This document shows, in pieces, positions 33,369 through 41,695 of a stretch of 41,695 bases of DNA. Both the position numbers and the translations under genes were made by a program. Source of the DNA: a bacterium (GTDB lineage Bacteria; JAJVIF01). The notes under the pieces were generated by a model that did not search any database, had not been told where the DNA came from, and was given only the letters and a program-made list of their open reading frames with translations. The stretch lies in NCBI GenBank assembly GCA_022072165.1, contig JAJVIF010000002.1:388358-430052 (forward strand). Direction: 5' to 3'. Positions within the stretch are counted from its first letter, which is position 1; each line of letters opens with the position of its first letter.

Positions 33369-36170
33369 TTACATGTACTGATGGATCCAGTTGTTGACCA
33401 CCTGGAACTGGTTCATGGGATTACCGCCCCAGACAATGCAGTTGCTGCTCGCTTCTCGCGTGATGTTGCTGCTCATCGAGGTGTTCAGCGTCCCATACGA
33501 CATCAGGTTGTAGTTCGCCGAAGTCAGGGGACTGGTGTTCGTGCGAATGTGCGGCAGGTTGAAGACATGCCCCAGTTCATGCGGCAGCACGATGGTGTCG
33601 AAGCTCGAGTTGAACGGGATGATGTAGCAGCCGCGACCCGAGTTGTTCTGATTACAGGAACTGTCACTCATCACCCCACCCAGACCGGGGTCCTTGGGCT
33701 GACTGTTGATCACCCAGACATTGATCCGGTTCGAGGGGCCGCCCAGGACCAGACTCCAGAGCGAGTTTTCTTCGCTGTTCGTGTCGATGTTGAAGAGGGC
33801 GGGACTTTCGTAGGTCGCGTAGTCGGTCAGCGTCGTGTCGAACCGCGTGGCGGTCCCCACAAAGAGCGGGTTGACGTAGCTTTCGATCCAGTTATTGACG
33901 TTAGTCAGGTTCCAGCTGGAAGCCGGCATCCCCTGCAACCGGGTTGGCAGGGTCCCACCGCTGGTGATCACCCGAATCCGCATCCCGACCGTCTTGTACG
34001 TCACAGTCAGCGTGAAGGGAAACGTGTTGCTGTTGCCACAGGCATTGGTCGCGACCACGGTCCCGTTGTAGGTCCCCGGTACGCCGAGCGTGACGCTCGG
34101 GCTGACCGCAGTGCTCGTGTTCGGAGTCGCGCCACCACCGAAGTTCCAGGACCAGGAGGTGGGGCTGTTCGTGACAGTCGCTGTGACGGTCGAGGAGCGG
34201 AGCCCGAAGGTGGCAGAGAAGTTGACCGCCGAGATGACCGGGGGGGAACAACTGGTGACCGTCAGCGTAAAGGGGAAAGTGCTGTTGCCTGCTCCATTGG
34301 TCGCCGTGACAGAGCAGCTGTAGCTTCCTACAGCACCAAGCGTCACCGTCGGACCGGCGGCGGTACTGGTATTCGGGGACGCGCCCCCGCCGAAATTCCA
34401 GGACCAGGAGGTCGCCGCTCCACCAATGTTGGTCGCGCTGAAGGTGCGACTGGAACCCGCACCACCGTTGAGGGGTGTGACACTGGTCAGATTCGGCGGC
34501 GCGGGGGTCACCGTGAGGGTAAAGGGAAAGACGCTGTTCCCGGCGACATTGGTGGCGGTCACCGAACAGTTATAGGTTCCCACCGCGCCCAGCGTGACGG
34601 TCGGATTGGCGGCGGTGCTGGTGTTGGGGGTCGCGCCCCCCCCGAAGTTCCAGGACCAGGAGGTGGCCGGGTCCCCGGTGTTGGTGGCCGAGAAGGTTGG
34701 GGTCGAAGCGGTCTGCCCGGAGAGCGGAGTCACCGCCGTAATGTTCGGAGTCGCGGGACCAGGCGGCGGCTCCACCAGGACTTCGACTCGCTGATAACGT
34801 GTCGAGAGTTCGAAGTCCGATGGCAGGGTCTGGACTTCCAGGGCTTCATTCAGAACAAAGGGGACGGGGACCGTTCCATCCTGTGTGTCCCGGACCCGCA
34901 TCAGCCCCTGCACCAGATCCCCCGTACTGCTGATGACGGTATAGGTGCGGTCGACATTGTTGACGAGCGCACTAACCGTGATGAACTCACTGATGAGTCC
35001 GCTCGATGCGCCGACCGTGCCACTGAAGGGGGAGGTCGCCCGGAGTTGCGGGAAGCTGACCTCTACCTGGGTCGGACGGGAGACCTCACTAATCTGATTC
35101 AGATTGGACTGATTCGGAAAAGTCGATGCTTTGGTGGCGTTGTTATCCCAGTCGAGAATGGTGGCGGTGACCGTGGCAAGTTCGCTGGAGGAGTCGGCCT
35201 TGAGGGTCCCGACGACTTCCACGCTGATGTCCTGCAGGTCCCCGGCACCTTCGGGCATGAAGTACCGGCAGGCGGTGGGGTCCGCCGGATCCGGCAGGCG
35301 ATTCGCCCGCTTCTGCGCGGAGGTGGTCCCTTTGCGGGGGTCCATGTACTTGGCGATGACCACCACCGGCAAAGGTGGCGTCACGACATTCCGAAGGCGC
35401 ATGGTGGTCGTGGCGGTCGCGCCCTGGGGGATGACGTCGTAGCCGGTCGGGGCGAGGAACTCGTTCCCCAGCCAGCCGCCGACGGCATCGTAGTTTCCGG
35501 CAGGGGCGCTGTGATTCGCGCGGGTCAGGAGCTTATAGGGGAAGACATTGGTGCCGCCGCCGACCCCCAGGCCCGCCATGTTCACCATCGGCCCCACCAT
35601 GCGATACCCGTTGGCGTTCGGCATGATGGCGATGTTGGTTTTGACCAGGCTGCTGAAGAAGAGATCGGAGCCGCTGATGCCCAGGACCAGCGTGACATCG
35701 TTGATGAAGAGGTCGACCCGCTTAGTCGCGCTCTGCGGACGGTTCAGGTCCGGCGGCATCGCGAAGGGATGCGTGAACTGGAAGGTGTAGTCGGTGGTGC
35801 CTGCCGGTCCGGCAGCGGTATTGGTGATGACCAGTGAAGAGGCGTTCATGTAGGGACGGACTGACAACGCATAGAGGTCGCCCTGTGCCTGGGCGGCGCG
35901 GCCCATCTCCAGTTGCACCAGCGTGGGGTCCTCGGCATCCCGGGTCAGCCAGTAGACCCCCAGGGCACCGCTGCTGTTGCCGGCGGCATCGATGACCGCT
36001 CCCCCGGTGAGGTCCCCCTGCGCCAGCGGGGCTTCTACAGCAGGCGCAGCAGGAGTAGTCGCGGGTGAGGTCGATTGCGGCGTGCCGCTCACCGGTTCGT
36101 TTGAGCGCTGGCACGCCATGAGGGTAGTGAGCAGCAGCCCCAGGGAGAGGAGCGAGAAGATCTGGCGCAT
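33369..36170 (-). CDS. large lipoprotein with PKD-like domains and C-terminal metzincin-type protease domain (paralogue 4)
   Basis: A 933-aa lipoprotein. The start at 36170 gives a signal peptide with lipobox LMAC, and AAAGGAA lies about 11 nt upstream. The N-terminal region carries every family landmark: LGVYWLTRDAEDP, FQFTHPFAMP, KRVDLFINDVTL, NANGYRMVGP, TGYDVIPQG, AKYMDPR and LMRVRDTQD. Three PKD-like domains follow, all with SWSWNFGGG and two of them very similar at DNA level. The protease domain opens with IRVITSGGTLP and has HELGHVFNLPH near residue 864 and YNLMSYG as Met-turn. It is closest to the pseudogene copy: the KRVDLFINDVTL-coding DNA is nearly identical in both. A 19-bp palindrome 94 bp upstream may control it. 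Confidence 0.87.
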   Translation of the reverse strand: MRQIFSLLSLGLLLTTLMACQRSNEPVSGTPQSTSPATTPAAPAVEAPLAQGDLTGGAVIDAAGNSSGALGVYWLTRDAEDPTLVQLEMGRAAQAQGDLYALSVRPYMNASSLVITNTAAGPAGTTDYTFQFTHPFAMPPDLNRPQSATKRVDLFINDVTLVLGISGSDLFFSSLVKTNIAIMPNANGYRMVGPMVNMAGLGVGGGTNVFPYKLLTRANHSAPAGNYDAVGGWLGNEFLAPTGYDVIPQGATATTTMRLRNVVTPPLPVVVIAKYMDPRKGTTSAQKRANRLPDPADPTACRYFMPEGAGDLQDISVEVVGTLKADSSSELATVTATILDWDNNATKASTFPNQSNLNQISEVSRPTQVEVSFPQLRATSPFSGTVGASSGLISEFITVSALVNNVDRTYTVISSTGDLVQGLMRVRDTQDGTVPVPFVLNEALEVQTLPSDFELSTRYQRVEVLVEPPPGPATPNITAVTPLSGQTASTPTFSATNTGDPATSWSWNFGGGATPNTSTAANPTVTLGAVGTYNCSVTATNVAGNSVFPFTLTVTPAPPNLTSVTPLNGGAGSSRTFSATNIGGAATSWSWNFGGGASPNTSTAAGPTVTLGAVGSYSCSVTATNGAGNSTFPFTLTVTSCSPPVISAVNFSATFGLRSSTVTATVTNSPTSWSWNFGGGATPNTSTAVSPSVTLGVPGTYNGTVVATNACGNSNTFPFTLTVTYKTVGMRIRVITSGGTLPTRLQGMPASSWNLTNVNNWIESYVNPLFVGTATRFDTTLTDYATYESPALFNIDTNSEENSLWSLVLGGPSNRINVWVINSQPKDPGLGGVMSDSSCNQNNSGRGCYIIPFNSSFDTIVLPHELGHVFNLPHIRTNTSPLTSANYNLMSYGTLNTSMSSNITREASSNCIVWGGNPMNQFQVVNNWIHQYM

Positions 36171-36263
36171 GGCGAACGGGTTCCTTTGCGGAGTCGCGGA
36201 CTGGCAGGGTCGCGGAGAGGATAGCAGACTCAGGCATCGGGACACAGGGTATCAGGTGCCGAA

Positions 36264-36282
36264 GTGTGCAAAATTTGCACAC
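36264..36282. promoter_or_regulatory. 19-bp operator-like palindrome
   Basis: GTGTGCAAAATTTGCACAC is a perfect inverted repeat of two 9-bp arms around a single base. It is A/T-centred, unlike the G+C-rich hairpins elsewhere, which suits a dimeric repressor site more than a terminator. It lies 94 bp upstream of the ATG of paralogue 4. The regulator is unknown. Confidence 0.55.
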
Positions 36283-36374
36283 CAGGCCCCTCTGGGTGGA
36301 GGGGGACGCGGAACATGCGACAAACCGCTCGCTCCTGCTGGCGTTCTGCCTCCTGGAACGGAAAGTAAGCGTGG

Positions 36375-36406
36375 AGCAGCGTTCCCATCATCTACTGAAC
36401 GCTGCT
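36375..36406 (-). terminator. hairpin terminator of the Cys-rich/lipoprotein operon, with the stop codon in its loop
   Basis: A perfect 10-bp stem, AGCAGCGTTC (36375-36384) with GAACGCTGCT (36397-36406). The 12-nt loop contains the TAG stop of the last gene (36392-36394). On the minus strand a moderately T-rich stretch (TTACTTTCC) follows. Confidence 0.6.
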
Positions 36407-37360
36407 GGCTTCCCTGCCCTCTTTCCCCTGCCCCTGGCAGTCTACTGAAGCATCTGCACTCCAGAAAGGGTTCGGCATCGGGGTCCAATAGCCCGGCTTA
36501 GCGATGAAAAAGTTATCAAGCAGCATTTGCGGTGTTTCAGGTCCCAGTTCGACAATTGACTTCATGCCTCTATGTTCTGGCGGAGTTCGCTGCCCCGTTG
36601 CTTCAAACAGATTTCTGTCGGTGATCAAGAGCCATCGTTGAGCCCCATCTTTCCTGAAGGCACACAGAATCTCTGCACTTGCGGACACTGAAAACACTAG
36701 CTGGCCGAACTTGCTCTGGATTCTGGATGCCGTAATTGGCGGCACACGCATACGCCAGTAGGAGTACAACACGCAATCCTCTACTCTGACCTCCTGCGGC
36801 GTTTGCATGAGGATAGACATTAAAGCCACCAGAGCCCGCCACTCTGGCGGTGTGATGGTACCGGGAGGATAGGCTCCCGGCAGATGCGAAGCGTGAACTC
36901 CAGAGAATTTCGTGGGAATCTCTGGCAGGGGCGCGACCGTGGTGCCCTCGGGACTTTTCCAGAGAAGCTGCGCTTCGCCTTCCGGACTTTCATGGAAGTA
37001 CAGTCTGTCTGACCCGACGCCAGATCCATCCATTGCCACCTCGGTACCTGCATCACTGAGCAGCAAGACAGGTAACAATAAGTCGCTGGCGACTGGATCA
37101 CCATTCAGCACGTCGGACCAGCCGACGGGGCCAGGGGTCAGAGCCCTTTGCCATGCCCCCCTCAAACAGACCAGTCGCTCCTGCCGTGAAACCATCCGCA
37201 CCCGGCCTGATGCGACCACTTCGGTGTGCGGGAGGGTCTTCAGGCTCAGCTCAGGTGCTGGTCGCTTCTCTTCCTTGTGGCATGCGACAGACATTGCGCT
37301 TAGCATGGCTGTGCAGCACCACAGCGCCCAGGCCCCACTATGAAAGGGGATCACTAGCAT
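36392..37360 (-). CDS. putative lipoprotein, second copy of the operon's lipoprotein component
   Basis: A 322-aa protein of unknown function, last gene of the phase-variable operon. The N-terminus is a signal-like stretch ending MLSAMSVACHKEE, where the Cys could be lipidated although the residue three before it is Ser rather than Leu. The mature part has LVALMSILMQTPQEV and a C-terminal region with AQRWLLITDR. This resembles DQRWLVYIPL in the lipoprotein at 37836, so the two may be distant homologues. Its ATG overlaps the previous gene's stop in ATGCTAG (37354-37360), which indicates translational coupling. The stop codon lies inside the terminator loop. Codon and base use are more A/T-rich than in the neighbouring thiC and metalloprotease genes. 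Confidence 0.68.
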   Translation of the reverse strand: MLVIPFHSGAWALWCCTAMLSAMSVACHKEEKRPAPELSLKTLPHTEVVASGRVRMVSRQERLVCLRGAWQRALTPGPVGWSDVLNGDPVASDLLLPVLLLSDAGTEVAMDGSGVGSDRLYFHESPEGEAQLLWKSPEGTTVAPLPEIPTKFSGVHASHLPGAYPPGTITPPEWRALVALMSILMQTPQEVRVEDCVLYSYWRMRVPPITASRIQSKFGQLVFSVSASAEILCAFRKDGAQRWLLITDRNLFEATGQRTPPEHRGMKSIVELGPETPQMLLDNFFIAKPGYWTPMPNPFWSADASVDCQGQGKEGREASSVQ

Positions 37361-37815
37361 CCTGAGGCTTCCGCTTCACAATCACAAAAGCGCGGGTAAA
37401 ATAATTCAGGCAGGCGGGGAATGCATCCCAGATTGTAGCATCCCGCATCGCAGATGGCCTGGCCAAAGATTTTAGGTGGCCAGTCATGGTTAAACACCAA
37501 GCCTGGTCCTACTGTCATGCATGGAATTGGCGGAGGATACAGCGGGCTGGTGCAGTCTTCGTCGTAGCCACAGGTATATATTACAAACATCCCTCCCGGG
37601 TGCTGAACGCTTACATCAGCCTGCATTTCAATACAATCATCAGGATCCTCTCTGTTGCAACAACAGCGGAAGGAGCTATATTCCAAAACCCCTTCTGGAA
37701 TAGCAAGCAACGCGATGGGGATGCAGCAATCAGCGGTTGCGCTGACTGGTGGAGGGCTGGCGAACAGAACAGTCAGCATGATTCCTGCTCCTGCCAGCCA
37801 CTGTTGCAGTCGCAT
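37354..37815 (-). CDS. Cys-rich exported protein (copy 2)
   Basis: A 153-aa exported protein with signal peptide MRLQQWLAGAGIMLTVLFASPPPVSA and 15 cysteines in the mature part. The cysteine pattern begins CC, then CCC, then single residues including DEDCTSPLYPPPIPC, and ends CDCEAEASGC. The N-terminal CC, the DC-T-x-P-x-Y segment and the cysteine total match the protein at 38790, so the two are probably paralogues. Shine-Dalgarno AGGAGG lies 9 nt before the ATG at 37815. No known family is recognised; toxin-like, adhesin-like or metal-binding roles are all possible. It lies 20 bp after the previous gene and overlaps the next by 7 bp. Confidence 0.7.
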   Translation of the reverse strand: MRLQQWLAGAGIMLTVLFASPPPVSATADCCIPIALLAIPEGVLEYSSFRCCCNREDPDDCIEMQADVSVQHPGGMFVIYTCGYDEDCTSPLYPPPIPCMTVGPGLVFNHDWPPKIFGQAICDAGCYNLGCIPRLPELFYPRFCDCEAEASGC

Positions 37816-37835
37816 AGAACGGGTCCTCCTGGTAG

Positions 37836-38768
37836 CTATTCGGTTGCTTCAGACGGCAGTAAATTGCTGAGGGCGATTTCGCAGGTACGCCATTCTTCCG
37901 GGTTCCATGGCGCTGCCGCTGCCAGCCAGCGGTCGATGTCATACTGCTCATGGTGGAAGAACCCCAACATTTCTCCGTGCAGGCGCCTTTCCTCATTCAG
38001 GGGTATGTAGACCAGCCAGCGCTGGTCAGCCGCTTTGTCTGTGAAGGTGATGCCTATCTGCCGCATGTCAGATCGCCGCCACCAGGCCATGGAGAACGAT
38101 CCTGCCGCCAGACGGTCCAGATACTCCGGGTTAGTGCAGGCGCCGATTCTGTCCAGGCTGTCGCTCAGGGTCACCGGATCTTCCTGATACGCGTGGGCGT
38201 GAATCGCGATCGCAGTCAACCACTGGCCAGCCAGAGCCACGTCAGTAGGTGGTGAGATGGCCGTGTGTTGCTGCTCAATCGCTTCTGCGGGTGATGGCAG
38301 AAAGCCGCTGAAGATATCCTGCGAGGATAACGTGGCGTCATCTGTCACGCTCATCCCGTTGGCCAGGGGACTCGACAAGTTGCTGATCACAGCTCCTGGA
38401 GTGTTCAGCGATGCATTCTCGGGCAGGATGGGCCACGGCGTTTGACCAGAATAGGATGGCCACACGACGATGAATGGCAGGAGTTCTGAGAGGTTGACAG
38501 GGTCCCGACCATGCCGGCGAACATAAGCACCGAGAGCACTTACAGCTACGGACTTCACCAGCATCCGCTGCAGCTGGAGTTGCTTGTTGGCCTCAACGTC
38601 GAACGGTACTCCTTCATCGGCAGCGCCAGCCCTCGGTTTCGATGGCATCGCTCCCGATGAATTCCGTTGACTGGCACCAGTATTGCACCCTGGTACGGCG
38701 ACCAATCCAACGCTGACCAGAAGCACCAGGGAAATGCCCCATTGTGCAGACAGCAGACTTGTGGTCAT
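37836..38768 (-). CDS. putative lipoprotein, first copy of the operon's lipoprotein component
   Basis: A 310-aa exported protein with a lipoprotein-like signal (ISLVLLVSVGLVAVPGC, lipobox VPGC). After a short linker it has a helical segment with AYVRRHGRDPVNLSELLPF, a pattern reminiscent of the Y-x-G-x-x-P-x-x-L-x-E-L stretch in many pilin-like and pseudopilin-like proteins. That likeness is weak. Further on are ALAGQWLTAIAIHAHAYQEDP and DQRWLVYIPLNEE. No family is recognised. Shine-Dalgarno AAGGGAG lies 7 nt before the ATG at 38768, and the gene begins 21 bp after the upstream Cys-rich gene. Confidence 0.7.
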   Translation of the reverse strand: MTTSLLSAQWGISLVLLVSVGLVAVPGCNTGASQRNSSGAMPSKPRAGAADEGVPFDVEANKQLQLQRMLVKSVAVSALGAYVRRHGRDPVNLSELLPFIVVWPSYSGQTPWPILPENASLNTPGAVISNLSSPLANGMSVTDDATLSSQDIFSGFLPSPAEAIEQQHTAISPPTDVALAGQWLTAIAIHAHAYQEDPVTLSDSLDRIGACTNPEYLDRLAAGSFSMAWWRRSDMRQIGITFTDKAADQRWLVYIPLNEERRLHGEMLGFFHHEQYDIDRWLAAAAPWNPEEWRTCEIALSNLLPSEATE

Positions 38769-38789
38769 TTCAACGCTCCCTTCACGCGA

Positions 38790-39272
38790 CTATGGCCTGG
38801 GCAGAAGATATGGGCAGTCGCCCGGGTGACAGTACAGGCGTTCCAGGCAGATGTCCTGCGGCACCCCAGTCGTGCAGATCAGGACAAATTCTGGCGGTTG
38901 GCAGCTTTCCCATGTCCAATAGGTGCCCCGGCAGTCGTAGGTGAACGGGCAGGTGAAGTCCTGGCACATTTTTTCGCACGGTTCTGCCCCCGCCGGCACC
39001 CAGTAACTGGGATGGGTGCAGTCTCCGGGATTTTGAGCACCTGTAAATTTCCGAACGACTGCATTGCGGGCGACCACATTTCCCCAATGGACGATTTCCT
39101 GAAATGGACGGACCTGCTGCTTGCAGACACAAGAGATCAAGAAGTTACAAAACAGCCCTGTATCCACGGGCGTTTCGAGGACACAGCACCCAATTGGAAC
39201 GGCTACAGCCGCCGGCACACTCAGGATGCTCCAGCAGAGCAGTATGGTCCACAGCCTCAAGACAGCTTTCAT
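38790..39272 (-). CDS. Cys-rich exported protein (copy 1), first gene of a phase-variable operon
   Basis: A 160-aa exported protein with signal peptide MKAVLRLWTILLCWSILSVPAAVA and 15 cysteines in the mature part. The pattern begins with CC and CxxxxxCxC (FCNFLISCVC), followed by GDCTHPSYW and a dense C-terminal half with EPCEKMCQDFTC and CHPGDC. It resembles the Cys-rich protein at 37354 in size, export and cysteine count. The ATG at 39272 lies 8 nt after a TACAAT -10 box, so this first gene is probably leaderless, whereas the second and third genes of the operon have strong Shine-Dalgarno sequences and the fourth is coupled through a 7-bp overlap. Function is unknown; disulfide-rich surface or secreted proteins are often variable-expression factors. 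Confidence 0.72.
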   Translation of the reverse strand: MKAVLRLWTILLCWSILSVPAAVAVPIGCCVLETPVDTGLFCNFLISCVCKQQVRPFQEIVHWGNVVARNAVVRKFTGAQNPGDCTHPSYWVPAGAEPCEKMCQDFTCPFTYDCRGTYWTWESCQPPEFVLICTTGVPQDICLERLYCHPGDCPYLLPRP

Positions 39273-39280
39273 GGATTGTT

Positions 39281-39313
39281 ATTGTAAGAGAGAGAGAGAG
39301 AGAGAGATGTCAA
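39281..39313 (-). promoter_or_regulatory. putative phase-variable promoter: TTGACA, T(CT)10 spacer of 21 bp, TACAAT
   Basis: On the minus strand, consensus -35 TTGACA (39313-39308) and near-consensus -10 TACAAT (39286-39281) flank exactly 21 bp made only of T and ten CT units. The optimal sigma-70 spacer is about 17 bp, which eight CT units would give. Slipped-strand mispairing in the tract would therefore change promoter strength. The present 10-unit state is predicted to be weak or off. The -10 box ends 8 nt before the ATG of the first operon gene. Confidence 0.75.
39287..39307. repeat. (AG)10A dinucleotide microsatellite
   Basis: Ten uninterrupted AG units plus one A on the plus strand (CT on the coding strand of the operon). 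It is the only dinucleotide tract of this length that I see in the window. Confidence 0.95.
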
Positions 39314-39362
39314 GGGCTCGCTTCGGAGTCGCTCCACGCCTTCTGCCACATATGGAACGTGT

Positions 39363-39473
39363 CCGGGTCTAAAGACCCGGCGTCCAGCAGACCCGGACCC
39401 CAAGTCTTCAGACTTGGGACGTGAGCCTGCATCAGCCCGAGAGCAGTCGCGTGGTGCCTGGGTCACAAGACCC
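39363..39473. repeat. third palindrome family between thiC and the Cys-rich operon
   Basis: Three palindromes lie in a row: CCGGGTCT-AA-AGACCCGG (39363-39380), CCCAAGTCT-TC-AGACTTGGG (39399-39418), and GGGTC-ACAA-GACCC (39460-39473). The first and third share an AGACCCGGCGTCC tail, so they are two imperfect copies of one element. They could act as a bidirectional barrier downstream of thiC. Together with the promoter at 39281 they fill the 218-bp gap. Confidence 0.75.
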
Positions 39474-39490
39474 GGCGTCCGGGGAGACCC

Positions 39491-41317
<1,827 letters not shown>

Positions 41318-41365
41318 CTAGCGTACCTCAAGCAGAACGGTGGTGGCGACGGGCAGCTCCGACGA

Positions 41366-41439
41366 TCCCGACGCGGGGCGCGTCGGGCACCCACCGACCG
41401 GGGGTCGGGACACCGGGCGAGCAGGGCTCGCCCCTCCGA
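41366..41439. repeat. divergent three-hairpin REP module with a compensatory base-pair change
   Basis: Same three stem-loops as at 1427 and 10358. In the first stem the outer pair has flipped from G-C to C-G: GGACGCG with CGCGTCC elsewhere, CGACGCG with CGCGTCG here. The second and third hairpins are unchanged. It lies between the thiC riboswitch and the response-regulator gene. Confidence 0.85.
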
Positions 41440-41455
41440 GTCTCCTGCTAATACG

Positions 41456-41500
41456 GTCCCCCCCCCCGCTTGCGGGGGTGGTCGCTCAGCGACCGGGGGT
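41456..41500. repeat. companion repeat after the REP module (poly-C10 and GGTCGCTCAGCGACC hairpin)
   Basis: Ten C residues (about 41458-41467) followed by GCTTGCGGGGG, then the palindrome GGTCGCTCAGCGACC and GGGGG. It parallels the sequence at 10440-10481, which also follows a three-hairpin module, so both parts probably belong to one dispersed unit. Confidence 0.6.
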
Positions 41501-41518
41501 GTTGCGCAGCCTGCATGT

Positions 41519-41524
41519 CATAAT
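41519..41524 (+). promoter_or_regulatory. candidate -10 box (CATAAT) for the response-regulator gene
   Basis: CATAAT lies 56 nt before ATG 41580. The predicted leader contains a hairpin, GTGTCC-CCAC-GGACAC (41541-41556), and Shine-Dalgarno AAGGAG (41562-41567). GATTAT at 41535 is an alternative -10 box. Confidence 0.4.
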
Positions 41525-41579
41525 CCGGGAGTCCGATTATGTGTCCCCACGGACACACCGGAAGGAGCCACTCGCCGCC

Positions 41580-41695
41580 ATGAAAGGCCTCATCCTCGTG
41601 GTCGAAGACGACCGCGGAGTCGCCCGGTCCCTGACCACCATCCTGCAGACTGAAGGCTACGACACGCTGATTGCACCGGACTACGCCGAAGGCCG
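41580..41695 (+). CDS. response regulator receiver domain, partial (cut by window end)
   Basis: The first 38 residues of a protein that begins with a classic CheY-like receiver domain: LILVVEDDRGVARSLTTILQTEGYDTLIA. The acidic pair after the first strand (EDD) is visible; the phosphoacceptor Asp and any output domain lie beyond the window. ATG 41580 has AAGGAG 12 nt upstream. The partner kinase is not in the window. Confidence 0.88.
   Translation, partial: MKGLILVVEDDRGVARSLTTILQTEGYDTLIAPDYAEG

Follow-up and report, generated by a model that had tools for sequence, protein, structure and literature searches.

Dinucleotide tracts occupy the promoter spacers of nine paralogous operons for predicted exported proteins and probably form a multi-locus set of contingency loci

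A CT tract was found to make up the entire spacer of a sigma-70-type promoter, and eight further dinucleotide tracts in the same genome lie in equivalent promoters; together the nine probably constitute multi-locus promoter-spacer contingency loci resembling the hifA/hifB switch (probability roughly 0.78). From the sequence, a set of surface or secreted proteins is probably toggled at random by repeat slippage. The window, meaning the whole 41,695-nucleotide stretch of DNA analyzed, lies on contig 2 of a 3.26-Mb genome (4 contigs, 99% complete), and this one assembly was searched by sequence patterns, with AT and CG runs checked in a 442-kb genome sample only. The CT tract in the window, designated T4, appears to be one member of a genome-wide set (T1 to T9).

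On the minus strand, positions 39313..39270 of the window read TTGACA-T(CT)10-TACAAT-AACAATCC-ATG, an arrangement that occurs once in the window and 0 times in shuffles preserving dinucleotides. The -35 hexamer TTGACA (39308..39313) matches the consensus at 6/6 positions and the -10 hexamer TACAAT (39281..39286) matches TATAAT at 5/6, while the T(CT)10 tract (39287..39307; period 2, 10.5 copies, 100% by Tandem Repeats Finder) forms the whole 21-bp spacer. A further 8 nt (39273..39280) separate the -10 hexamer from the gene 1 start codon (39270-39272), so the layout proposed in the sequence-only reading is exact in every element. An in-frame TAA overlaps the end of the -10 hexamer, between the tract and the ATG, and the tract is thus outside translation in the frame of gene 1. 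The 8-nt gap implies a leaderless or near-leaderless transcript, as judged from the placement of the hexamer. Across minus-strand positions 36000-41695, no second sigma-70-like site with a 16- to 18-bp spacer was identified. The window contains no long dinucleotide run other than the T4 tract; at a larger scale, positions 1-767 contain a 230-bp unit repeated 3.3 times with 95% matches.

The T4 promoter reads into a minus-strand operon of four genes. Gene 1 (38790..39272; P0001) encodes a Cys-rich protein of 160 amino acids with a signal-peptide-like N terminus, and gene 2 (37836..38768; P0002) encodes a lipobox protein of 310 amino acids belonging to family A of the paralogous operons. Gene 3 (37354..37815; 153 amino acids), a second Cys-rich protein predicted to be exported and related to gene 3 of the T7 operon, and gene 4 (36392..37360; 322 amino acids), a second lipobox-type protein, make up another copy of the same gene pair. 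Signal peptides and lipobox motifs were read by eye from the N termini of the translations. Searches of Pfam, NCBIfam, and PDB sequences with genes 1 and 2 returned no meaningful family, an 18-residue PDB match being discarded, and no credible relative of gene 1 was found in 59 genomes or in a genome-contig search; a match from Rufibacter covered only a 26-residue Cys-rich stretch and was not accepted as a relative. Downstream of the operon, a 958-amino-acid open reading frame with PKD domains occupies positions 33369-36245 (minus strand). Upstream and co-directional, but outside the system, lies thiC (39491..41278, minus strand); the 218 bp between it and gene 1 contain strong inverted repeats. 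The intergenic DNA following thiC (39314..39490, minus strand), which is rich in inverted repeats and forms a good RNA fold (z score, -3.2), may shield the operon against read-through from thiC. Short palindromes, GGGTCT..AGACCC and CCAAGTCT..AGACTTGG, cluster at positions 39320-39490, and similar palindromes were identified elsewhere in the genome (at L105, C1:1595254, and C1:1595332), indicating a repeated hairpin element.

Seven AG/CT runs of at least 7 units are present in the genome, and a six-unit threshold gives the same seven. All seven lie 0 to 2 nt from a TTGAC and end at or beside a -10-like hexamer. Among the four GT/AC runs of at least 6 units, two (T8 and T9) have TTGAC on one side and a -10-like hexamer on the other. 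All nine spacer tracts are on the strand reading into a paralogous operon of the Cys-rich plus lipobox type, and both this placement and its recurrence were observed directly. The -35 ends of the loci lie at C1:1545065 (T1), C2:53930 (T2), C2:315497 (T3), C2:427670 (T4), C2:551962 (T5), C3:163554 (T6), C4:125762 (T7), C1:1587183 (T8), and C1:1590678 (T9). Of the other two GT/AC runs, a (GT)10 designated T10 (G000:C4:114753-114772; L074) directly precedes TAAGAT upstream of another such operon with no recognizable -35, possibly reflecting a decayed or differently built promoter, and an (AC)6 (C2:574789-574800; L073) precedes the start codon of a lipoprotein gene by about 20 nt and occupies no clear promoter spacer. 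On the sense strand the unit is AG at T1, T2, T5, T6, and T7, CT at T3 and T4, and GT at T8 and T9. Perfect runs range from 14 to 26 bp, and the T2 tract is interrupted by CG. The sequences flanking the tracts share no similarity and could not be aligned between loci; thus, the set is not accounted for by a single recent duplication of a promoter, and what persists, given also the different units, is a position rather than one duplicated sequence.

Measured from the best-scoring -10 hexamer, the spacers are 19 bp (T1), 17 bp (T2), 17 bp (T3), 21 bp (T4), 16 bp (T5), 15 bp (T6), 19 bp (T7), 25 bp (T8), and 17 bp (T9), the choice of -10, and hence the length, being uncertain at T1, T2, T5, and T6. 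T3 has a full-consensus TATAAT at 17 bp (-35, 5/6; -10, 6/6), and the -10 match is weak or ambiguous (3 to 4 of 6) at T1, T2, T5, T6, T7, T8, and T9. Spacer length is odd at eight of the nine loci, so that 17 bp is reachable in whole repeat units, although this parity is suggestive only. The series is predicted to represent a mixture of ON and OFF states, with T2, T3, T5, and T9 predicted to be ON and T4, T7, and T8 low. At T4, T8, and T9 the -10 hexamer ends 6 to 8 nt before the ATG, a placement that is consistent and independent of the tract and that implies, by its position, leaderless transcripts at these three loci.

To gauge chance, AG/CT runs were counted in the 442-kb sample: 3-unit runs occurred 70 times, 4-unit runs 4 times, and runs of 5 to 6 units were absent from this tally (the other register holds a few of 5 units), whereas runs of 7 to 11 units were confined to the promoter-spacer loci. 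The frequency of TTGAC is about one per 2,100 strand-bases, and nine of the 11 long dinucleotide tracts abut it (P of about 1e-21 by a simple binomial). A narrow control, using the single pattern TTGACN0-3(AG)6 and hence AG units only, was applied to 385 genomes, comprising this one and mostly unrelated bacteria, and was positive in seven; it gave five loci here versus one or two in each other positive genome. No spacer tracts of the T1 to T9 kind were found in three genomes of the same class. In one unrelated bacterium (L081; G016:C33), TTGACA-(AG)14-TATAAA has a tract that likewise fills the spacer, at one locus.

At all 10 loci (T1 to T10), a short predicted exported protein is followed by a lipobox protein. 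The gene 2 products fall into family B (T2, T5, T6, and T10), with 28 to 41% identity and E values down to 1e-116, and the more diverged family A (T1, T3, T4, T7, T8, and T9), linked by some pairwise matches and one profile; neither family has a Pfam or NCBIfam match. Proteins of the tract loci are often only 20 to 43% identical, yet perfect tracts are retained. Using profile searches, further family A and B operons lacking a dinucleotide spacer tract were found, bringing the total to 17 operons, about 15 of them repeat-bearing. The tract-less promoters read TTGACA-17-GATAAT (L106), TTGACA-17-TATAGT (L115), TTGACA-17-TATTTT (L116), TTGACG-17-CATATT (L114), TTGACT-16-TATTAT (L117), and TTGACC-14-TAAGAT with an A8 run in the spacer (L118), and no TTGAC promoter was recognizable at L105. 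In G003, which belongs to another family of the class, a tract-less family B homologue has the promoter TTGACA-17-TATATC. Since most tract-less paralogues and the G003 homologue have spacers of 16 to 17 bp, the sequences indicate that promoters of this family normally have a spacer of about 17 bp; 17 bp is also the commonest distance from TTGACN to a -10-like hexamer in the 442-kb sample. The suggestion that the T4 spacer is two CT units away from 17 bp agrees with this norm. In four tract-less paralogues, a 100%-perfect tandem array lies in the leader, downstream of the -10 hexamer and ahead of the start codon, with units and copy numbers of 10 bp x 4.4 (L106:933-976), 17 bp x 4.1 (L115:2353-2422; the unit holds a ribosome-binding-like AAAGGAG and an ATG), 8 bp x 4.9 (L116:958-996), and 12 bp x 6.1 (L117:2297-2369). 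Taking the spacer tracts at nine loci with T10, the A8 run in one spacer, and the leader arrays at four loci together, we lean slightly toward stochastic control across the whole family through independently recruited repeats.

We propose that the CT tract serves as the adjustable spacer of the T4 promoter. Replication slippage would add or remove whole CT units, shifting the distance between -35 and -10 in 2-bp steps, and the promoter would fire near 17 bp and be weak or silent at 21 bp. The sequenced T4 allele would then be OFF or low, with the loss of two units (10 to 8) turning it ON. T1 to T9 would provide at least nine such switches, each on one Cys-rich/lipobox operon, so that individual cells would express different combinations of operons. 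Slippage and its rate, the effect on transcription, and surface exposure of the products are all inferred, and the advantage may lie in escaping phage, predators, or a host. The genome encodes MutS, which usually steadies dinucleotide tracts, and the rate of slippage is therefore possibly modest. Other observations run against a switch: the weak -10 hexamers, the absence of a -35 at T10, the (AC)6 outside any spacer, the 14-bp spacer of L118, and the lack of such tracts in the three same-class genomes. The earlier proposal of a phase-variable switch, which considered T4 alone, gains partial support from the same layout at nine paralogous operons, from three different dinucleotides in the spacer, and from the 16- to 17-bp spacers of most tract-less paralogues.

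Some of these features would also fit an evolutionary tuning knob, in which the strength of the promoter is set by a tract length that changes only slowly and does not switch often within a population. The graded spacers of 15 to 25 bp, the presence of MutS, and the CG interruption in T2, which would slow slippage, all point that way. However, perfect dinucleotide runs of 8 to 13 units are typically hypermutable, and perfect tracts persist despite the divergence of the proteins; slow tuning is considered unlikely. That the tract lies outside the working promoter, with the operon read from elsewhere (for example, by thiC read-through) or the repeat acting by frameshifting, is very unlikely: thiC is indeed co-directional upstream and a reading frame crosses the tract at T3, T8, T9, and T10, but inverted repeats intervene between thiC and the T4 promoter, TTGAC is retained at nine of nine loci, and the gene's frame is closed through the tract at most loci. 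A coding-frame switch was rejected on account of the in-frame stop between the T4 tract and the ATG.

Paralogy of the tract-bearing operons would be expected if the tracts were neutral intergenic microsatellites or if one ancestral repeat-bearing promoter had been copied with its operon. We give this a slighter chance still, as long runs are essentially restricted to promoter spacers, three different units occupy one position, the flanks are unrelated, and the tract-less paralogues and the G003 homologue have ordinary spacers. Least probable is a regulator site or DNA-structure element of fixed length and sequence. AG/CT tracts are polypurine-polypyrimidine and can adopt unusual DNA structures, but T8 and T9 have GT, which is not polypurine, in the spacer, the AG or CT strand flips between loci, and the perfect runs vary in length; with GT tracts in the equivalent place, a regulator site was rejected.

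Spacer length is critical in sigma-70 promoters, and changes in tract length switch hifA/hifB and porA (PMC2651432, PMC3899988). The H. influenzae hifA/hifB fimbrial promoter has (TA)9-11, according to van Ham et al. (1993) as cited in PMC2651432 and PMC3899988. As there, a dinucleotide tract lies between -35 and -10, spacing is set by repeat units, and the products are exported (here as predicted). The hif promoter, in contrast, drives divergent pilus genes in both directions and has TA units, whereas here the promoters are unidirectional, contain AG, CT, or GT, and serve nine paralogous non-pilus operons, with some -10 hexamers seemingly placed for leaderless transcripts. Divergent pilin/chaperone genes of the hif type are absent at T4, where thiC is upstream and co-directional and the downstream genes have no Pfam or NCBIfam match. 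The -10/-35 spacer of Neisseria meningitidis porA contains a poly-G tract (PMC3899988), and the length of this spacer governs how an exported protein is transcribed, as probably happens here, although the porA tract is mononucleotide and changes in 1-bp steps, whereas the tracts here would change in 2-bp steps and serve a family of paralogous operons. The 7-bp repeats upstream of H. influenzae hmw1A/hmw2A (PMC2651432) resemble the 8- to 17-bp arrays between promoter and gene in the four tract-less paralogues but differ in unit length and belong to unrelated genes. Helicobacter pylori sabA has a T-tract near -35 (PMC4081817). Repeat length modulates sabA promoter output stepwise, as may be the case here, but its tract is outside the spacer and acts via alignment with UP-like elements, whereas ours are within it.

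Switching by spacer tracts is therefore already known; the new aspect is that a sparsely sampled lineage would deploy it across a whole operon family, with one repeat able to stand in for another. The best-known cases of promoter-spacer phase variation are single loci of host-adapted pathogens. Nine or more paralogous promoters with repeat-replaced spacers would show that selection keeps the position in the promoter and not the repeat sequence. T1 to T9 offer a natural spacer series (15, 16, 17, 19, 21, and 25 bp) and a prediction for each locus of whether its operon was ON in the cell that was sequenced. If true, family-wide repeat control would give this organism, from a lineage with very few sequenced relatives, a repertoire of exported proteins that could be turned on and off in combinations.
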